A DNA stretch of 64,000 nucleotides. Source: Faecalicoccus acidiformans (GTDB lineage: Bacteria; Bacillota_I; Bacilli_A; Erysipelotrichales; Erysipelotrichaceae). Below the pieces are notes generated by a model. It was not told the DNA's origin, made no database searches, and was given only the letters and a program-made list of their open reading frames with translations. The translations under genes were made by a program, and so were the position numbers. The stretch covers positions 1 through 64,000 of the forward strand of contig NZ_JACHHD010000003.1 of assembly GCF_014202635.1 (NCBI RefSeq), read 5' to 3'. Shown here piece after piece: positions 249 through 9,573 of the stretch (the stretch's first letter is position 1; every line of letters starts with the position of its first letter).

Positions 249-685
249 GTGGCCAATATTGGCGAACGAATAAGAAAAATTCGCCTCTTACGTAACATGA
301 TGCAAGGCGAATTAACAGTGGCTATTGGATTTGAAGATAATGATTATGGTCGTGGAAGAGTTTTAAAATATGAAAGAGGAATACGTGTTCCAAAAGAAGA
401 TATGTTAATAAAAATTAGTAAAGCTTTAAATATAAACTCCTACTATTTAAGTCAGGAGGACAACACATATGCTTTAGATTTAGCATATGAATTATTCGAT
501 TGGGACGATGTATTACCTTTTAAATTTAAAAAAGATGAAAATGTAGTTGGGTTCAATTTGATAAGCAATATTTCGGTGACTTTATTAATGAATGGATAAA
601 AATGAATCATAAATACATAAATGGAGATATTTCTTTAGAGAAATATCGTGAATGGAAATATCAATATGGAATAAAGGATAAATAA
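249..685 (+). pseudogene. XRE-family transcriptional regulator, frameshifted
   Basis: The N-terminal two thirds is a helix-turn-helix protein of the XRE type (IGERIRKIRLLRNM, then KYERGIRVPKEDMLIKISKAL). The likely start is GTG at 249, six bases after the strong site AAAAAAGGAGGT at 231-242; an upstream TTG at 207 would place that site inside the gene. The open frame ends at 599, but another frame continues from about 560 to a TAA at 683-685 and encodes FGDFINEWIKMNHKYINGDISLEKYREW. This is the kind of C-terminal helix pair expected in such regulators. I therefore read a small indel between about 540 and 565. Function is inferred as DNA-binding regulation of the neighbouring accessory genes. 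Confidence 0.65.
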
Positions 686-725
686 ATTCTACGATTCAAA
701 AATTCATCATCTAGGAGGGATTTTT

Positions 726-1481
726 ATAGAAAATATTTTTAAATTTATAAAATTTCATAAAAAAACTGTAATTAGCGTTTGTATTTTATTATTTATAATA
801 GTCCCCATTATCCCATTTATAAAGAGTCCTATAGGCATCTTCGATCGAGATTCAGCGTCCATTTTTATTCAATATTACGCGACCATTTTAGCTGGAATAT
901 CAGGTGGTTTTATTACTCTACTTGGCGTTTGGTGGACTATTGCTGATCAAAAAGTACAAAGAATTTATCAAGAAATCAAACAAAATGAGGATAGAAAAGA
1001 AGAATTAGAATTACAATACCGTTCTATTTTGTCTTTAAAACAAAATCCTCAAATTTTTTCTGAGTTAGTGGCAAAAAATTTCTTACAATTCAATTTCGAA
1101 CTATTCAATTATGGAAACACGGAAGCCATAAACTTAGAAATTAGAATGAAGAATCCCAATGATTCAGTAATTTCACATAACTATATACATAGAGATATTT
1201 TGCTTCCAAATGAGAGTATAGAATTCACATTTACAGATTACAACAATTTTTATTCTCCCCTTGGAGCCCAATTAACTTGGCATGTAGAAATCTCATACAA
1301 AAATTCTTTTGAAAGCACATATATTACCAAATTTGATGTACAAGCTAAAATGATAAATCACGAAAAGTTTAAAATTCTTGATGATAAATTCTCAATAGAG
1401 AAAGTAAAAAAAGAAAAAATAAAAACCGCAAAGTTTTCAGCAGAAATAATCAACAATAGCATAAGTAAAATTAATTTTTAA
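726..1481 (+). CDS. Two-TM membrane protein, apparent ATA start
   Basis: The frame is open well upstream of the first usual start (TTG at 1029). An AGGAGG site at 713-718 lies seven bases before an ATA codon at 726, and the reading frame from there gives a sensible membrane protein of 251 residues. It has a basic N-terminus, a hydrophobic segment at about residues 14-32, a second at about 50-72 (GGFITLLGVWWTI), a charged, probably coiled segment, then a soluble domain ending in a Lys-rich tail. I do not recognise the family. ATA is an extremely rare start, so this may be a start-codon mutation of a real gene. It lies directly downstream of the XRE gene and may have been its regulatory target. 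Confidence 0.55.
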   Translation: MENIFKFIKFHKKTVISVCILLFIIVPIIPFIKSPIGIFDRDSASIFIQYYATILAGISGGFITLLGVWWTIADQKVQRIYQEIKQNEDRKEELELQYRSILSLKQNPQIFSELVAKNFLQFNFELFNYGNTEAINLEIRMKNPNDSVISHNYIHRDILLPNESIEFTFTDYNNFYSPLGAQLTWHVEISYKNSFESTYITKFDVQAKMINHEKFKILDDKFSIEKVKKEKIKTAKFSAEIINNSISKINF

Positions 1482-1549
1482 TAACTCATTTTTTATTATC
1501 CATTTGTAAAATGGTAGCATTTTGGTAGGACTCCTCGCTTAAACATTAA

Positions 1550-2296
1550 AAAAAAACGAAATATCCAAGAGTTCCAAACGACATCACCGATCCGGAATAT
1601 TCCATCGAAGTCGGTGTTAAAACATTTACCGACTGCATTAAACAGGCAAAAGTTAAAGATCCTTTTAATACAGAAGACATCTACCTTGCGTTACAAGGAT
1701 ACAACTATGGAAACGGCTATATATCATGGGCCATCACCAATTTTGGTGGTTATTCCAAAGCCAACGCCAAAGTCTTCTCCAATATGAAATGTGAAGAACT
1801 AGGAGTCAACGGCTATGGTGACCCAGACTATATAGATCATGTCATGCGCTATGTTGGATTAGGATTTGGCAACATCCGAGGGGAACCAAACTTTGAAAAT
1901 ATGAAAGCTTGGGGCATGAATAACTATTACAGTCAGTTTGGATTATATGGCCAATGTACCTGGTTTGCCTGGGGAAGATTTTATGAAATCTATGGATACA
2001 GTCCCGGATTTACCGGAAACGGGAATCAATGCGTGGATCAGCTGGTTGCGGCACATCCTCATAAATTTGAAAAATCCAATACGCCAAAGGCAGGCGCTGT
2101 TTTCTCTGGTGTTGGACATAACCATGTCGGTATTGTGATCGCATGGGATGGAACAAATATCACCATCCAGGAAGGCAACATTGACGGCAAAACCAATACC
2201 TTCCAGGAAGCAAAAACGGACTGGCAAACTAAGACTTATACCCTTGCCCAACTTAACAGCATCTATAAAGGCGTGGTGTTTGCCAATCCAAAATAA
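1550..2296 (+). pseudogene. CHAP-domain peptidoglycan hydrolase, 5'-truncated
   Basis: The open frame begins after a stop at 1547 without a start or ribosome site. Its first part (VGVKTFTDCIKQA, LALQGYNYGNGYISWA) matches the end of the lysozyme-like domain found in CwlT-type, conjugation-linked hydrolases. The second part is a CHAP amidase/endopeptidase domain with the Cys of YGQCTWFAWGR and a His in GHNHVGIVI as catalytic residues. The membrane anchor and most of the lysozyme domain are missing. An internal ATG at 1784 could only give a protein without an export signal. Such enzymes open the wall during transfer of integrative conjugative elements, so I infer a remnant of a lost element. The base composition is more GC-rich than the gene to its left. 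Confidence 0.75.
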
Positions 2297-2307
2297 TCAA
2301 CAAGTGA

Positions 2308-2345
2308 AAAGATGGTTGCCAACATTATTGGTTCCAACCATCTTT
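2308..2345 (+). terminator. Hairpin terminator after CHAP remnant
   Basis: AAAGATGGTTG pairs with CAACCATCTTT (11 bp) around a 16-base loop, just after the CHAP stop codon. The T-run is short. Confidence 0.5.
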
Positions 2346-2442
2346 CCCAGTAATAATATTTATATTAAGAGTTAGTTCATTTTCCATTTTGAATTCTCAC
2401 AGTAATTAAACCGTTAGAATTTCTTCCTCAGTTATTTGGCTA

Positions 2443-3390
2443 TTAAAGTAATTCGTTTAAAAGATTCATGCATTTTATTTTCTGTTGCAAATTAGCACTA
2501 CCATATACATTCAAAGTAAACGATACGTTTTTGTGCCCCAGAATCTCAGATAAAGACTTGATATCGAACTCTGGAATTTCTATTGCTCTAACCGCAAAAG
2601 TATGTCTTATTTCGTGGAATTTAACATTAGCCAGGTTATGACGCTTTAAGAACCTTGAAAAAAACTGCCTGTAAGTCCTTGGCTCGGTAGGCCTCGTCTT
2701 ACCAGTTAAAAAATAATGATTTGGATTTTCATTGTAAAACTTCTTAATAATATTCACTAATAACGACGGTAAAGGAATAACTCTAGCAGATGTTTTTGTT
2801 TTTGGCGGACCAATATGAATAAATGATGTTCCTTTTTTCTTATCATAAATTCTTTGGACGGTTTTATTAATGTTAATCGTTTTCTCTGTCAGTGATATGT
2901 CCTTCATTTGTAGCCCACAAAGTTCCCCGATGCGAATTCCAGTAAATAGCGAAATTAATATCCCTGCTGTTTTTCTGTTTAAATTCATGTAAATGCATTG
3001 AATAAGTTCTTGTTCTTGATCTTTAGATAAAGAAACTACTTTCTTATTCCCCAACTCCTTAGGATATTCAATAAGATCCCAATTCAATAATGGTATGACT
3101 TTTTCTTTATAAGCATATTCCATTGCCAATCTTAAAACTAATACAACATCCCTAATTGTTTTAACAGTTAAACCCCCTGTTTTATCTAACCGTCCTGCAT
3201 TATAAAGATAAACGATGTAATTTTGCACATCAGATTCGGTTATAGTTCCAATCTTCCTTTTGCCAAAATATGGAACTAAATGATTCTCCGTAATAAGTAC
3301 AAAACTAGCAAATGTCGATGGCGTAATCATGGCTTTTTTGTTGTTTAACCATTTATTCACCAAAGTCTTAAATTGTGTATTTTCTGTCAT
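2443..3390 (-). CDS. Tyrosine recombinase, probable hsdS invertase
   Basis: This 315-residue protein has an N-terminal SAM-like core-binding domain (about residues 5-95) and a C-terminal catalytic domain with the family set: Arg in FTGIRIGELCGL, HxxR in HEIRHTF, His in LGHKNV and the nucleophile Tyr in LNVYGSA. The start is ATG at 3390, eight bases after GGAGG; a GTG five codons earlier overlaps that site. It lies directly beside two convergent hsdS genes, the usual place of XerC/D-like recombinases that shuffle type I specificity genes in Firmicutes. I infer that role, although a role as integrase of a lost element cannot be excluded. Confidence 0.85.
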   Translation of the reverse strand: MTENTQFKTLVNKWLNNKKAMITPSTFASFVLITENHLVPYFGKRKIGTITESDVQNYIVYLYNAGRLDKTGGLTVKTIRDVVLVLRLAMEYAYKEKVIPLLNWDLIEYPKELGNKKVVSLSKDQEQELIQCIYMNLNRKTAGILISLFTGIRIGELCGLQMKDISLTEKTININKTVQRIYDKKKGTSFIHIGPPKTKTSARVIPLPSLLVNIIKKFYNENPNHYFLTGKTRPTEPRTYRQFFSRFLKRHNLANVKFHEIRHTFAVRAIEIPEFDIKSLSEILGHKNVSFTLNVYGSANLQQKIKCMNLLNELL

Positions 3391-3436
3391 AATGACCACC
3401 TCCACAAATATTATCTTGTAGAGGTATATCCATTAG

Positions 3437-4669
3437 TATTTATCCTCAATTAACGGTCTCGAAAAGTGTCCGAAGTTGCGATTTCCTGGCTTTGATGAGC
3501 CGTATAGGAAATACCAGATAGGTGATGTTTACGCCGAGCGAAGCCAGCGAGGAGCTGGCGATATGGAGCTACTTTCTGTGACAATGAATGATGGTGTAAT
3601 GCCTCGCTCAGAGATAGAGGGAAAGGACAATTCAAGCGAAGATAAAAGCAATTACAAAATCGTTTGTAAAGGAGATATGGTGTATAACTCTATGCGGATG
3701 TGGCAAGGGGCAAATGGCGTTTCTAACTATAATGGAATAGTAAGTCCTGCATACACCGTGTTAATGCCTATCGAAGAGATTGATAATCAATACTTTGTAG
3801 CCTTATTCAAAACTTCAAATTTGATAAATGAGTTTAGGAAAAACTCGCAAGGATTAACATCGGACACTTGGAATCTTAAATATCCGCAAATCCGTGCCAT
3901 CAAGCTCTATATTCCTTCTCTACAAGAACAGCACAAAATCTCTTCTTTCTTTAGTACACTCGAAGAAAGAATAGCCAAACAACGGCAACTCGTCGATACC
4001 CTCAAGAAGTATAAAAGAGGACTCTCGGATGAGCTTTTTGGGGAGAATGAGACAACCGAAGAATGGACAACAGTCCCGTTTGGTGAAGCTTTCGATCTGC
4101 TGCAAAACAACACATTCTCTCGGGACGAAATGTCATCCTAAAGCGGAATAGCTTATAACATTCACTATGGAGATGTTCTAATTAAATACGGAGTTGTGGT
4201 TGATCTTTCTAAGTCAAAGGTACCATACATTCGCTCGGATGTGAGCCTTTCAAAGTATGCTCAAAGCAGTTATCTGCGCGACGGGGACATTGTGATCGCA
4301 GATACCGCAGAAGATTATACAGTTGGCAAGGCGGTAGAAATTGTTGGAGTCGCTGATGTGAAGGCATTATCAGGACTTCACACAATACCATGCCGCCCTA
4401 AGATCTCGTTTGCACCTATGTATCTTGGTTACTTTATCAATTCCAAACGATTTAGAACGCAAATACTTCCGCTGGTACAAGGGACGAAGGTTTCCTCTAT
4501 AAACAAAAGCGAAATTCTAAAAACTTCTATTGCATTTCCCTCATTCGGAGTGCAGTCACAAATAGCCACTATGCTTTATGCTTTGGATCATAGGATTGAT
4601 ATTTGTCAAGCTTGTGTTCAAGGACTTGCACGCACTAAGGAAGCATTGTTACAGCAACTTTTTATATGA
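3437..4669 (+). pseudogene. hsdS: Type I R-M specificity subunit with in-frame stop and no clear start
   Basis: HsdS recognises the target DNA of type I restriction-modification complexes through two target-recognition domains (TRDs) joined by conserved helices. Here CPKLRFPGF marks the N-terminus, TRD1 runs to about 3930, the central helix is EERIAKQRQLVDTLKKYKRG, and TRD2 follows from WTTVPFGEAF to the C-terminal helix ending LLQQLFI. A TAA at 4139-4141 interrupts TRD2, yet the same frame continues for 18 codons (NIHYGDVLIKYG) into the rest of the gene, so this is one nonsense codon, perhaps CAA to TAA. At the 5' end the frame opens at 3437 with only TTG or ATT as possible starts and no ribosome site, as in silent hsdS cassettes. 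No hsdM or hsdR is present in the window. Confidence 0.85.
4000..4020 (+). repeat. 21-bp inverted repeat, hsdS central helix (left copy)
   Basis: This perfect 21-base match (core CTCAAGAAGTATAAAAGAGG) recurs in reverse complement at 5278-5298. It encodes LKKYKRG in the central conserved helix of both hsdS genes. Inversion between the two copies would exchange the TRD2 halves without breaking the frame. Confidence 0.85.
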
Positions 4670-4690
4670 ATAGCTGCTGTAATAGTCCCT
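4649..4690. other. Overlapping convergent hsdS ends with inverted repeat
   Basis: The two hsdS genes end tail to tail and overlap by eight bases (4662-4669). TTACAGCA and TGCTGTAA, both from the codons of the shared LLQQLF tail, form an inverted repeat across the junction. It may act as a weak two-way terminator. Confidence 0.5.
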
Positions 4691-5766
4691 CTTTTAGATC
4701 GGACAAAAAAGCAAGCACATTTTCTTCATTCATAATCTGATCATCAAGCAAGGAAAGTAATCCTATAATCGTGTTCTGAGTGTTTTTATCCGGGTATGTC
4801 AATGTGAGTTTGCGCAATTCACTCGCTTGAATATGGACAACTGACTTCCCCTGTGCTATGCGGGCGATTTTTGCATTAACAACATGATTAAGCAGATAGC
4901 TTATAATTCGTCCATCCACCTTATCGCCACGGAAAATATTGAGGTCTCCGGCAAGAATGACACCGGGCAACATGACACAAGATGCAGTTGAAATCTCTTC
5001 TGGCGTTTCGCCGGAAGTCGGGATTACGACATCTCCTACACGGCTCAGAAATAACTCATCAACTTGTGCTTGCGTCCGCCGTTTAACACTGGTTATAACC
5101 TCGTTGTAGGTGGTATAAAGTTCTCCATAAAGGATAAAGGGTGTACCATCCTCGGATATATCGGCTTTGGAAAGAGGTGCTCCCTTTACAAAACTGCCGA
5201 GTTCACCCATCTTGGCAGTAGTCCATCTCGCTTTTTTCAGGGGACATGATTTTGGTGAAAGGAGATGCCTTACTGCACCTCTTTTATACTTCTTGAGGAC
5301 GTCAATATATTTCCGCTGACAAACTATTTTTTCGTCTATGAGACCAATGAATTTTGATAACTTTTCCTGTTCGCGCTTTGAAGGCATATAGCACTTAACG
5401 GTCAAAAAGTCTTCCGGAGAAACTGCCATTCGCTCATATACAGTGCCTTGCTGATACCGTAAAGCCTTATTTATGAAATCCCATCTTGATAAGTTTTCAC
5501 CAACAAAATCAGCGTCGTAATCGCTCTGGATTTCAAAGGTGACATATATGGGAGAAAAAATTGCATCCCCATATTTATTTAAACAAATTACACCAAATTT
5601 CAAATTTGCCGGATTGTAACACAAGTCGTTAATGTGCGTAACTTTGTACTTTTTGTTTTCGGTAGAGACTAGGAAATCACGATCATATCGTGCTGTTTTT
5701 CCGAATATTCCGTCTTTCGATAGCGTAGCATGTTCAAAGCTTCCATCTTTCTCTGCGAACTCGTTT
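4662..5766 (-). pseudogene. hsdS: Type I R-M specificity subunit, 5'-truncated
   Basis: The reading frame encodes the later part of TRD1 (KDGIFGKTARYDRDF, then CYNPANLKFGVI), the central helix IVCQRKYIDVLKKYKRG, an intact TRD2 (WTTAKMGELGSFVKGAPLSKADI to KLTLTYP) and the C-terminal helix ending LLQQLFI. Coding similarity continues upstream of the TTG at 5624, without a stop, until it meets the hairpin and ISL3 remnant at 5767, so the N-terminal part was lost there. TRD2 differs from that of the facing hsdS, as expected for alternative specificities. The shared central sequence makes this half a donor for inversion. Confidence 0.85.
5278..5298 (-). repeat. 21-bp inverted repeat, hsdS central helix (right copy)
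   Basis: Reverse complement of 4000-4020, placed at the same codons of the minus-strand hsdS. The 1257 bases between the two copies are the predicted invertible segment. Confidence 0.85.
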
Positions 5767-5832
5767 TGGTACTATGTCAAGAAAATGGACAAGTTAAATA
5801 GAGAGTTTGTCCATTTTCTTGACATAGTACCA
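5767..5832. repeat. Perfect 26-bp inverted repeat (hairpin) at IS junction
   Basis: The arms at 5767-5792 and 5807-5832 are perfect reverse complements (TGGTACTATGTCAAGAAAAT and six more bases) around a 14-base centre. The unit lies exactly where the minus-strand hsdS is cut off and the ISL3 coding remnant begins. It could be two abutted IS ends left after an internal deletion, or a tiny MITE. I do not recognise the end sequence. Confidence 0.8.
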
Positions 5833-6249
5833 CGTTTCAATCAGATCGAATATGAAAAGGCAGAGGATGTTCAGAATGCGCTGGAGAATCTCATCTCCAG
5901 ATATCAAGATTCAGATCAACTCATATTCTATGATTTTTCTCGCTTTCTGGAATCCCACAAGGAAATGATCATCCATTCGTTCACAAGATTAAAGGTCCAT
6001 AGAAAAACCGAAACCGAAGAAAAAGAATACTATAGCCGATTATCCAATGGACCGATGGAATCCTTCAACCGCAAGCCGAAGGATTATAAGAGAAACGCAC
6101 GAGGCTTCTCTGATTTCCATTATACACGAAACCGCATCCTCTTAAGCATGCGAAGAAATCCAGCCATCAAGGGAGTCCCAAGACCCAGATCTGAGTTCAA
6201 GAAAAACGGGGCAAAACGTGGCTGTTACAATAAGACCAAGCTAAGATAA
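5833..6249 (+). pseudogene. ISL3-family transposase, C-terminal remnant
   Basis: The translated segment has the C-terminal signature of ISL3 transposases: SNGPMESFNRKPKDYKRNARG followed by FSDFHYTRNRILLSMRRN. About 140 residues remain of a protein normally over 400 long. The N-terminal zinc finger and most of the DDE domain are absent, so it cannot transpose. The upstream open frame from 5632 is only a run-through of hsdS antisense DNA and the hairpin. This insertion event removed the 5' end of the minus-strand hsdS. Confidence 0.8.
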
Positions 6250-6289
6250 TATATACATATACAGAATCAAAAATAGACTGGGAGATATG

Positions 6290-6324
6290 AAAAAGGAGAG
6301 CAAATTTTTGTCACCCTCCTTTTA
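6290..6324. terminator. Hairpin after ISL3 remnant
   Basis: AAAAAGGAG pairs with CTCCTTTT around an AT-rich loop, downstream of the ISL3 stop codon. It may be a terminator or part of the IS end. Confidence 0.35.
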
Positions 6325-6340
6325 CATTTGAATTTTTAAT

Positions 6341-6431
6341 TTAGGGGAGTAGAAAATTTTTGTCCTTGGGTTAATCCCCTAAATTCTCCCCCAGATTTTT
6401 GGCCGAGTCCCCTAAATTATTTGGTTACCCG
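6341..6431. repeat. Iteron-like CCCCTAAA repeat block, copy 2
   Basis: The order is the same as at 1-96: a GGGG-rich left part (TTAGGGGA, which can pair with TCCCCTAA), then CCCCTAAATTC, CCCCCAGATTT and CCCCTAAATTATTTGGTTACCCG. The right edge coincides with the start of the IS3 coding remnant, as if the block marks the end of an inserted or deleted segment. Confidence 0.6.
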
Positions 6432-6785
6432 ACTATGAATTAATACTGCATTCTGATCAAGGGTCTGTATACGCTTCTAAAGATTTCAACGAAACCTTAC
6501 CTCTTTATAACATCACAAGAAGTATGTCTCGTGCTGGTGCGCCTACGGATAATGGAGCTATGGAAGCTATCAATGGTTGGACTAAAGAAGAGTTGTTTAC
6601 CGATTTTAAGATTACTGAATCGGATAATGTCTTAAAGAGTATCGGCGAGTATGTTATTTTCTTCAATAATGAAAGACCTGCCTACGCTCTTGGATACAAG
6701 ACGCCTAAGCAAGTAAAGGATGAATACTTTCAGAGTGAGAAAAGCTAAAATTTATATGAAAGTGTCTACTTTCTGTTGACTAGTG
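6431..6785 (+). pseudogene. IS3-family transposase (IS150 group), C-terminal remnant with right end
   Basis: The frame reads LILHSDQGSVYAS (second catalytic Asp region of the rve integrase core), then SRAGAPTDNGAMEAINGWTKEE (final Glu region) and FFNNERPAYALGYKTPKQ, the normal end of IS3 OrfB, stopping at 6748. About 105 residues of roughly 280 are left and the first catalytic Asp is missing. Downstream, GAAAGTGTCTACTTTCTGTTGAC at about 6759-6781 resembles an IS3-type right end. Confidence 0.8.
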
Positions 6786-8256: not shown

Positions 8257-9573
8257 GTGTAAAAGTTATATCCCTAGCCAATTCAATTAGTCCTTAAACC
8301 AGTCTTCTCTTATCGTTTGTCCAAATCCTCGATGTATATGGTTCATATTCTTCTCGTTGTATCGATTAAATTGGATAACTAGATATTTCTCTTCTGATTG
8401 CTCCGTTGGAAACTGCTCCTTCTTTTTGAAGCTACGCTTAAGCTGCTTGTTATTTCCTTCGATCAGATTTGTAGAATAGATCGTTTGTCTAATACATTCA
8501 GGGTAGTCATAGAATGTGAACAGATTCTCATTGTTGCTTAGGCTTTTTACCATCGATGGATATTTGTGTTTCCATTTTTCGATAAACTGATCAAAAGCAC
8601 TTGATGCGTCTTCTTTCGTTTTGGAGCGATAGACTTCTTTGAAGTCATTAGCCACCTCTTTTCGGTCAGAGACCCTTGTCTTGGCACATAAATTTCTTTG
8701 GATATGAACCAAGCATCTTTGGATATTGGATGCTGGAAAGGACTCGCTTATTACATTTTCCATTCCAGATAAACCATCTGTGCAGAACAAAGAAACACGT
8801 TCCACCCCTCTGGATCTAAGATCTTCCAAAAGTTCTTTCCAGATTTCAGAGGATTCGTTAGGAGCTATCTTGTAGCCTAAGATTTCTTTGGTTCCTTCTA
8901 GTGTGATCCCAAGTGCTATATGAACCATCTCTCGAGATACCGTGTCTCGTCGCAAGGCCATGGACGTACCATCAAGATAGATCACTGGATATTCTTTATT
9001 GAGCGTTCTATTCTTGAATGAATCGATACATTCCAAGGTCTTGTCGGTAATGTTGGAAATCGTCTGCTTGGAATAGTGATGTCCGCACAATTTTCGAATG
9101 ATGGTGCAGATTTCAGAATTGCTCATTCCTTCTTCAAAAAGATCAAGGATGGTGGCTTCTGTTGAAAAGTCTCGTCTTCTATATTTAGGAATAAGGGAAG
9201 TAAAGAATTCACCGAGTCTGTCTCTAGGGATACGAAGTGTGAGAGGACCATACTTTGTGTCCAGCTTCCTTTCATAGAATCCGTTTCTAGAATTTTGACT
9301 ATCGGTTCTTTGATAAGGTTCATAATCCAAAAAAGCAGTGAGTTCATAGGCTAATATTTCATTTAGAGACTTTTCGAGTTCAGAGCGGAAAAGTTCAGAA
9401 ACAGCTTGTTCGAAAGCAGGAAGATTGTTGTCATTAGTAAATAGGCTTTTCATCAAAGATGTAGTAAAATAGTTCATGGGTATATTCCTTTCGTAAATTG
9501 TTTTTGGTCGAACTAATTTTACTAAGGATATACCTTTTTTTTATCTTTAAAGAAAATCACTTTTACACAAAAT
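8257..9573 (-). mobile_element. IS256-family insertion sequence
   Basis: A full-length transposase is bracketed by related ends: TGTGTAAAAGTTAT near 8258 and, in reverse complement, TGTGTAAAAGTGAT near 9560-9573. Exact borders are uncertain and I found no clear target duplication. The right end overlaps the 3' end of the EamA gene, which it truncates. Confidence 0.7.
8287..9477 (-). CDS. IS256-family (mutator-type) transposase
   Basis: The 396-residue protein is of full family length. The DDE core is visible: Asp in VIYLDGTSMALRRD, Asp in VSLFCTDGLSGMENVI with the nearby signature CLVHIQRN, and a Glu in STNLIEGNNKQLKR. It starts with ATG at 9477 after GAAAGGAATATACCC. No frame break is visible, so this may be the only active transposase in the window. 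It cuts and joins the ends of its own element. Confidence 0.9.
   Translation of the reverse strand: MNYFTTSLMKSLFTNDNNLPAFEQAVSELFRSELEKSLNEILAYELTAFLDYEPYQRTDSQNSRNGFYERKLDTKYGPLTLRIPRDRLGEFFTSLIPKYRRRDFSTEATILDLFEEGMSNSEICTIIRKLCGHHYSKQTISNITDKTLECIDSFKNRTLNKEYPVIYLDGTSMALRRDTVSREMVHIALGITLEGTKEILGYKIAPNESSEIWKELLEDLRSRGVERVSLFCTDGLSGMENVISESFPASNIQRCLVHIQRNLCAKTRVSDRKEVANDFKEVYRSKTKEDASSAFDQFIEKWKHKYPSMVKSLSNNENLFTFYDYPECIRQTIYSTNLIEGNNKQLKRSFKKKEQFPTEQSEEKYLVIQFNRYNEKNMNHIHRGFGQTIREDWFKD

Follow-up and report, generated by a model that had tools for sequence, protein, structure and literature searches.

Two hsdS genes that face each other beside a tyrosine recombinase gene, with a repeat shared between them, raise the question of whether they form a working phase switch or are what is left of one. 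The pair lies in the first 64 kb of a 138-kb contig (C3) in a draft genome of 1.77 Mb and 31 contigs; this whole 64,000-nucleotide stretch is referred to here as the window. A preliminary description of this DNA had reported convergent hsdS genes overlapping at their tails, a perfect 21-bp inverted repeat within them and an adjacent tyrosine recombinase, and each of these features was recovered when the anatomy was checked on the sequence. Both hsdS frames, 3437-4669 on the plus strand and 4662-5766 on the minus strand, have Methylase_S/Specificity_I matches in a profile search. The features of the locus are as follows.

2443 to 3405, minus strand: tyrosine recombinase, intact, putatively the array's own invertase (Phage_integrase, E 1e-22; homology to array recombinases)
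3437 to 4669, plus strand: silent hsdS cassette without a start codon, with a nonsense codon at 4139-4141 (Methylase_S)
3444 to 3503, plus strand: 5' repeat (NGLEKCPKLRFPGF region), sole remaining copy, 85-90% identical to several copies in each of three related loci (L015, L016 and L017, described below)
4000 to 4020, plus strand: central repeat copy 1, exact inverted copy of 5278-5298
4662 to 4669, no strand: 8-bp tail overlap of the convergent hsdS pair, as in the relatives' pairs
4662 to 5766, minus strand: second silent hsdS cassette, 5' truncated (Specificity_I, E 9e-43)
5278 to 5298, minus strand: central repeat copy 2, exact inverted copy of 4000-4020
5767 to 5832, no strand: IS3-type end, paired with its inverted copy, where the minus gene breaks off (26-bp arms, 14-bp loop)
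5833 to 6249, plus strand: ISL3 transposase fragment (DDE_Tnp_ISL3, E 2e-9)
6524 to 6748, plus strand: IS3-type transposase fragment (rve_3, E 9e-10)

The 21-mer CCTCAAGAAGTATAAAAGAGG occupies 4000-4020 and recurs as an exact reverse complement at 5278-5298. The 1.77-Mb genome contains no further copy, even when two mismatches are allowed. The locus contains two hsdS genes with distinct target recognition domains (TRDs) in opposite orientation, and the repeat lies inside hsdS at the TRD boundary. Inverting 4000-5298 in silico produces an open plus frame that runs from NGLEKCPKLRFPGF through TRD2 of the minus gene, so that the earlier claim that inversion joins TRD1 of the plus gene to TRD2 of the minus gene and removes the nonsense codon holds in frame. 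A second copy of the 5' repeat was not found in the window. Both the 5' repeat (window 3445-3467) and the central repeat (4000-4020) begin with CCTCAA, and the relatives' repeats often start with CCTCAAG or CTCAAG; this common start may be a component of the recombinase site in both repeats.

A search of the minus gene against 84,980 species genomes returned 17 loci, four of them close. The relatives used below include Faecalibacterium sp. An122 (L015), a Clostridia metagenome-assembled genome (L016), Intestinimonas butyriciproducens An565 (L018) and a short contig containing portions of four cassettes (L017). L015, L016 and L018 each contain hsdR, hsdM, hsdS, three further hsdS genes in alternating orientation and a tyrosine recombinase; the first hsdS starts with MANVSSSNGLEKRPKLRFPGF in L015 and L018 and with NGIEK in L016. 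All three arrays share with the window its type of recombinase, its repeats and its convergent TRD2 pair. Two IMG/VR contigs have a similar content, one with hsdM, four hsdS genes and a recombinase 87% identical to that of the window (L063), and the other with hsdR, hsdM, four hsdS genes and a recombinase 86% identical (L050). The minus gene itself had no relative among viral contigs. Phage records yielded no match, and the plasmid search returned distant hsdS matches only.

The preliminary description had proposed related genomes as a place to look for rearrangement, and L015 and L018 provide it. These two loci are 99.83% identical across 7,584 bp upstream, hsdR and hsdM included, and 97.3% identical downstream, whereas the hsdS region (9800-14162 in L015, 7515-11876 in L018) matches in separate blocks of 99.4-100% identity that differ in order and orientation. 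The block ends fall at the 5' repeat (NGLEKRPKLRFPGF region) and the central repeat. Since the blocks are permuted exactly at the repeats, this array type shuffles, and the assignment of the window's locus to the invertible type stands. By this comparison, An122 and An565 are a natural pair, in which the same mobile element occurs in two genera with its hsdS array permuted, a natural record of recent shuffling. The presence of relaxase, MobC, topoisomerase and ArdA genes near the array identifies the element as a conjugative or mobilisable one. In addition, the expressed hsdS of L016 pairs the plus-type TRD1 with the minus-type TRD2, the same combination that inversion in the window would produce. 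The variation in orientation, comprising the L015/L018 rearrangement and the alternative TRD pairing of L016, is seen among relatives.

The window can be aligned with this array type from the recombinase inward. Reverse-complemented, L018 reads recombinase, 5' repeat, a cassette with an LSDELFG-type TRD2, its convergent partner with an AVRxLLS-type TRD2, and then the rest of the array. The window has the same order beside the recombinase: positions 2453-3503 match the recombinase and 5' repeat, while 3998-5293 align with the L018 TRD2 pair at 90.6%. This collinearity indicates that the left border is intact and that the plus gene corresponds to the first silent cassette. L015 and L018 share with the window a recombinase with 88% amino acid identity, the same central core and the same convergent TRD2 pair (about 90% at the DNA level). 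They differ from it in being complete and in residing on the element with relaxase, MobC, topoisomerase and ArdA; the copy in the window is cut short, and none of these genes was seen at its borders.

The 21-bp repeat encodes a conserved LKKYKRG motif of the central helix, and the shared sequence might merely reflect conservation of the protein rather than a site of recombination. This reading is hardly credible, since all 18 central copies from five loci have the identical 16-bp core, AGAAGTATAAAAGAGG, despite the availability of synonymous codons, while the flanks vary, and since the ends of the L015/L018 blocks coincide with the repeat. Such constancy at the DNA level fits a recombination site; the KKYKRG motif alone would permit synonymous change. 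The core also persists in L050 and L063. A chance origin of the repeat was rejected, as the core is constant in 18/18 copies and no copies of it are expected in shuffled sequence.

The recombinase that would act on these repeats is well preserved. Its frame (2443-3405) is intact, the R, K, HxxR, H and Y motif residues are conserved, and it is 86-88% identical in amino acid sequence to its counterparts at the ends of the L015, L016 and L018 hsdS arrays. A recombinase gene in the locus is a feature shared with phase-variable type I restriction-modification (RM) loci of the PsrA/SpnIII kind. From its position and homology, we infer that this enzyme is the array's own and catalyses the inversion. 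Among homologues of 34-38% identity from other genomes of the same class, hsdS adjoins the recombinase in several (L055, L057, L060 and L062), while none was detected in three others with a limited query set (L058, L059 and L061); the association of this recombinase with hsdS is thus strong, though not universal.

TRD1 of the plus gene is 77% identical in amino acid sequence to that of the expressed hsdS of L016, its TRD2 is 90% identical to an L015/L018 cassette, and TRD2 of the minus gene is 92-93% identical to those of L015-L018. The plus-gene TRD2, which bears the nonsense codon here, exists as intact copies in relatives. Both hsdS frames in the window lack a start codon at the 5' end, and the locus has neither hsdM nor an expressed hsdS with a start codon behind it. 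The preliminary description was right that the plus gene lacks a clear start, but this is not a defect: the silent cassettes of relatives likewise lack a start codon, and silent hsdS genes without ATG have been published for other inverting systems (PMC7394358). A reading of the start-less plus gene as decay was rejected on the evidence of the relatives. The missing start is normal for a silent cassette of this array type, which lacks one by design, and the locus thereby explains a feature that is easily misread as decay. The 8-bp tail overlap at 4662-4669 recurs in L015, L017 and L018, where each of the six convergent pairs examined has it, and together with the start-less plus gene it is, on this comparison, a standard feature of the array type.

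The minus gene is startless as well, and it is truncated. The open frame extends from 5766 to 4662. It starts behind a stop codon within the IS end, and no start codon occurs before 5624; alignment to L018 gives an estimate of about 38 missing N-terminal residues, together with the 5' repeat. The gene breaks off at 5766/5767, at a 36-bp stretch (5767-5802) with a 97% match to L. salivarius plasmid DNA that adjoins an IS3 transposase. Beyond 5767-5832 lie fragments of an ISL3 and then an IS3-type transposase (5833-6748). This side lacks the second 5' repeat, two cassettes, hsdM and hsdR, and we infer that IS activity caused the loss of the rest of the array. The perfect 26-bp inverted repeat with its 14-bp loop at 5767-5832 resembles two IS3 ends head to head; the possibility that this hairpin is a repeated small element was rejected, as the genome contains one pair only. 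A full-length Mutator-family (IS256-type) transposase at 8287-9477 is another sign of IS activity around the array.

A truncated array in a draft genome could also be an artefact, with a working switch whose expressed slot, hsdM and hsdR lie on unassembled DNA. Such arrays do break contigs: two contigs with related loci (L051 and L052) begin near the recombinase, and another type I system of the same 31-contig genome appears split at its hsdS. At 5767, however, the array meets IS fragments and chromosomal genes within a 138-kb contig and not a contig end, and hsdM and hsdR are long unique genes of which no copy of this type occurs in a genome rated 99.7% complete. An assembly loss is therefore highly improbable.

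The preliminary description had also proposed that hsdM, hsdR and the 21-mer be sought across the genome. In the 31 contigs of this draft (99.7% complete), no cognate hsdM or hsdR of the L015 type was found elsewhere, and the 21-mer occurs nowhere else. The sole HsdM lies on contig C22 and the sole HsdR (HSDR_N) on C25, and the six HsdS domain hits in the genome are all accounted for. The C22 HsdM and C25 HsdR appear to belong together in a separate type I system, which has its own hsdS, an XerA-like recombinase and the linker DELIKARFVEMFGD, and no copy of the 21-mer. The resident HsdM was consequently rejected as a partner of the window cassettes, and an 'N6_Mtase' match on C13 was rejected as an HsdM since its best score is to a small-domain methyltransferase (MTS). 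The C22 region (436-4187) contains hsdM, hsdS and the recombinase, and C25 (3-3992) a partial second hsdS beside hsdR; the two hsdS genes have a common 48-bp stretch (95.8%) at the linker, and this resident system also looks phase-variable. As for the origin of the window's locus, it is absent from all three congeners checked, and the 19-bp repeat is absent from 394 other genomes of the class, which points to horizontal arrival.

Taken together, we consider it very probable that the locus is one half of a phase-variable type I RM shufflon of the PsrA type, now decayed and stranded. The architecture of the intact array and its natural rearrangement, as they appear from comparison of the relatives, suggest how it would have worked. 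In the order hsdR, hsdM, expressed hsdS, three silent hsdS cassettes alternating in orientation and recombinase, inversion between copies of the 5' repeat and between copies of the central repeat would supply new TRD1 and TRD2 halves. Their recipient would be the sole hsdS with a start codon, behind hsdM, and the target sequence of the enzyme would change as a result. In the window, only the distal half is left, namely the recombinase and two silent cassettes, of which one is cut at the IS3 end and the other has a nonsense codon; it no longer contains the expressed slot, hsdM or hsdR.

Because the recombinase frame and its catalytic motif residues are intact, the segment between the two remaining central repeats can probably still invert. 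Such an inversion would swap halves between two unexpressed cassettes, with the nonsense-bearing TRD2 shuttling between the plus and minus genes. No change in methylation is expected, as neither cassette has a start codon or hsdM ahead of it. The earlier suggestion that one inversion could exchange a dead TRD2 for a live one is therefore formally correct in frame, but is likely to be of no consequence. To judge from this anatomy, the locus has probably lost its function. The intact recombinase and the single nonsense codon in the plus gene are a counterpoint to the reading as decay, and indicate that decay is not far advanced.

The preliminary description had left a choice between a decayed phase switch and a silent cassette store for a system elsewhere in the genome. 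Two silent cassettes are indeed present, but the only other type I system, on C22/C25, differs in its linker and lacks these repeats, and the second option finds no support. A broader form, in which the cassettes still feed another type I system by recombination or on arrival of a related mobile array in the cell, must be weighed against rates of divergence. In simple Nei-Gojobori estimates, which are rough at high divergence, dS between the window and its relatives is saturated for the recombinase and 0.28-0.38 for the TRD2 cassettes; between L015 and L016 it is 2.2 for hsdM, 1.0 for the recombinase and 0.31 for TRD2. The common ancestor of the TRD2 cassettes is therefore younger than that of the backbone, which fits their exchange between arrays. 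TRD1 of the plus gene is old, with saturated dS against L016, so exchange is not uniform. The travelling TRD2 cassettes and the intact recombinase frame are in keeping with a store still in use. Nevertheless, there is no compatible array in the genome, one cassette is truncated and the other has a stop, and TRD1 of the plus gene shows no such recent exchange, which makes a store very unlikely. A related idea is that stranded cassettes with an intact recombinase constitute a chromosomal reservoir of TRDs, from which the hsdS of an incoming mobile array takes TRDs via the shared repeats. We regard this as unlikely, although, if true, it would explain why TRD2 cassettes are far younger between elements than the backbone genes.

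As a decayed shufflon, the locus can be compared with known systems. SpnD39III/Spn556II (cod) of Streptococcus pneumoniae comprises hsdR-hsdM-hsdS, silent hsdS genes and the tyrosine recombinase PsrA, and its 15-bp short inverted repeat IR1 exchanges TRD halves by inversion (PMC4948785, PMC7096588). At the level of organisation, the window resembles cod in having a tyrosine recombinase in the locus, a short inverted repeat and silent hsdS genes; it differs in having no hsdR, hsdM or expressed hsdS and in its repeat, which is 21 bp long and lies in a different sequence context. The parent array has four hsdS genes and short repeats at both positions, whereas the cod repeats are 15, 85 and 298 bp. 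The inverting type I systems in REBASE are defined with hsdM and an expressed hsdS, and have inverted repeats inside hsdS, often a recombinase, and silent hsdS genes without ATG (PMC7394358); the window has neither hsdM nor an expressed hsdS. The locus is thus a remnant of a phase-variable (inverting) type I RM locus of the PsrA/SpnIII kind and not a working member, as there is no cognate hsdM or hsdR and only the unrelated system on C22/C25. The kind of system, an hsdS shufflon, is already known, and the locus by itself is a relic. It provides a worked example of what remains after loss of a phase-variable type I system, and the contrast of young TRD cassettes with an old backbone points to movement of cassettes from array to array.

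A CHAP-domain protein (1784-2296, E 4e-12) adjoins the recombinase. It is possibly the tail of a larger cell-wall hydrolase of a mobile element, and may be a leftover of the element that brought the array.
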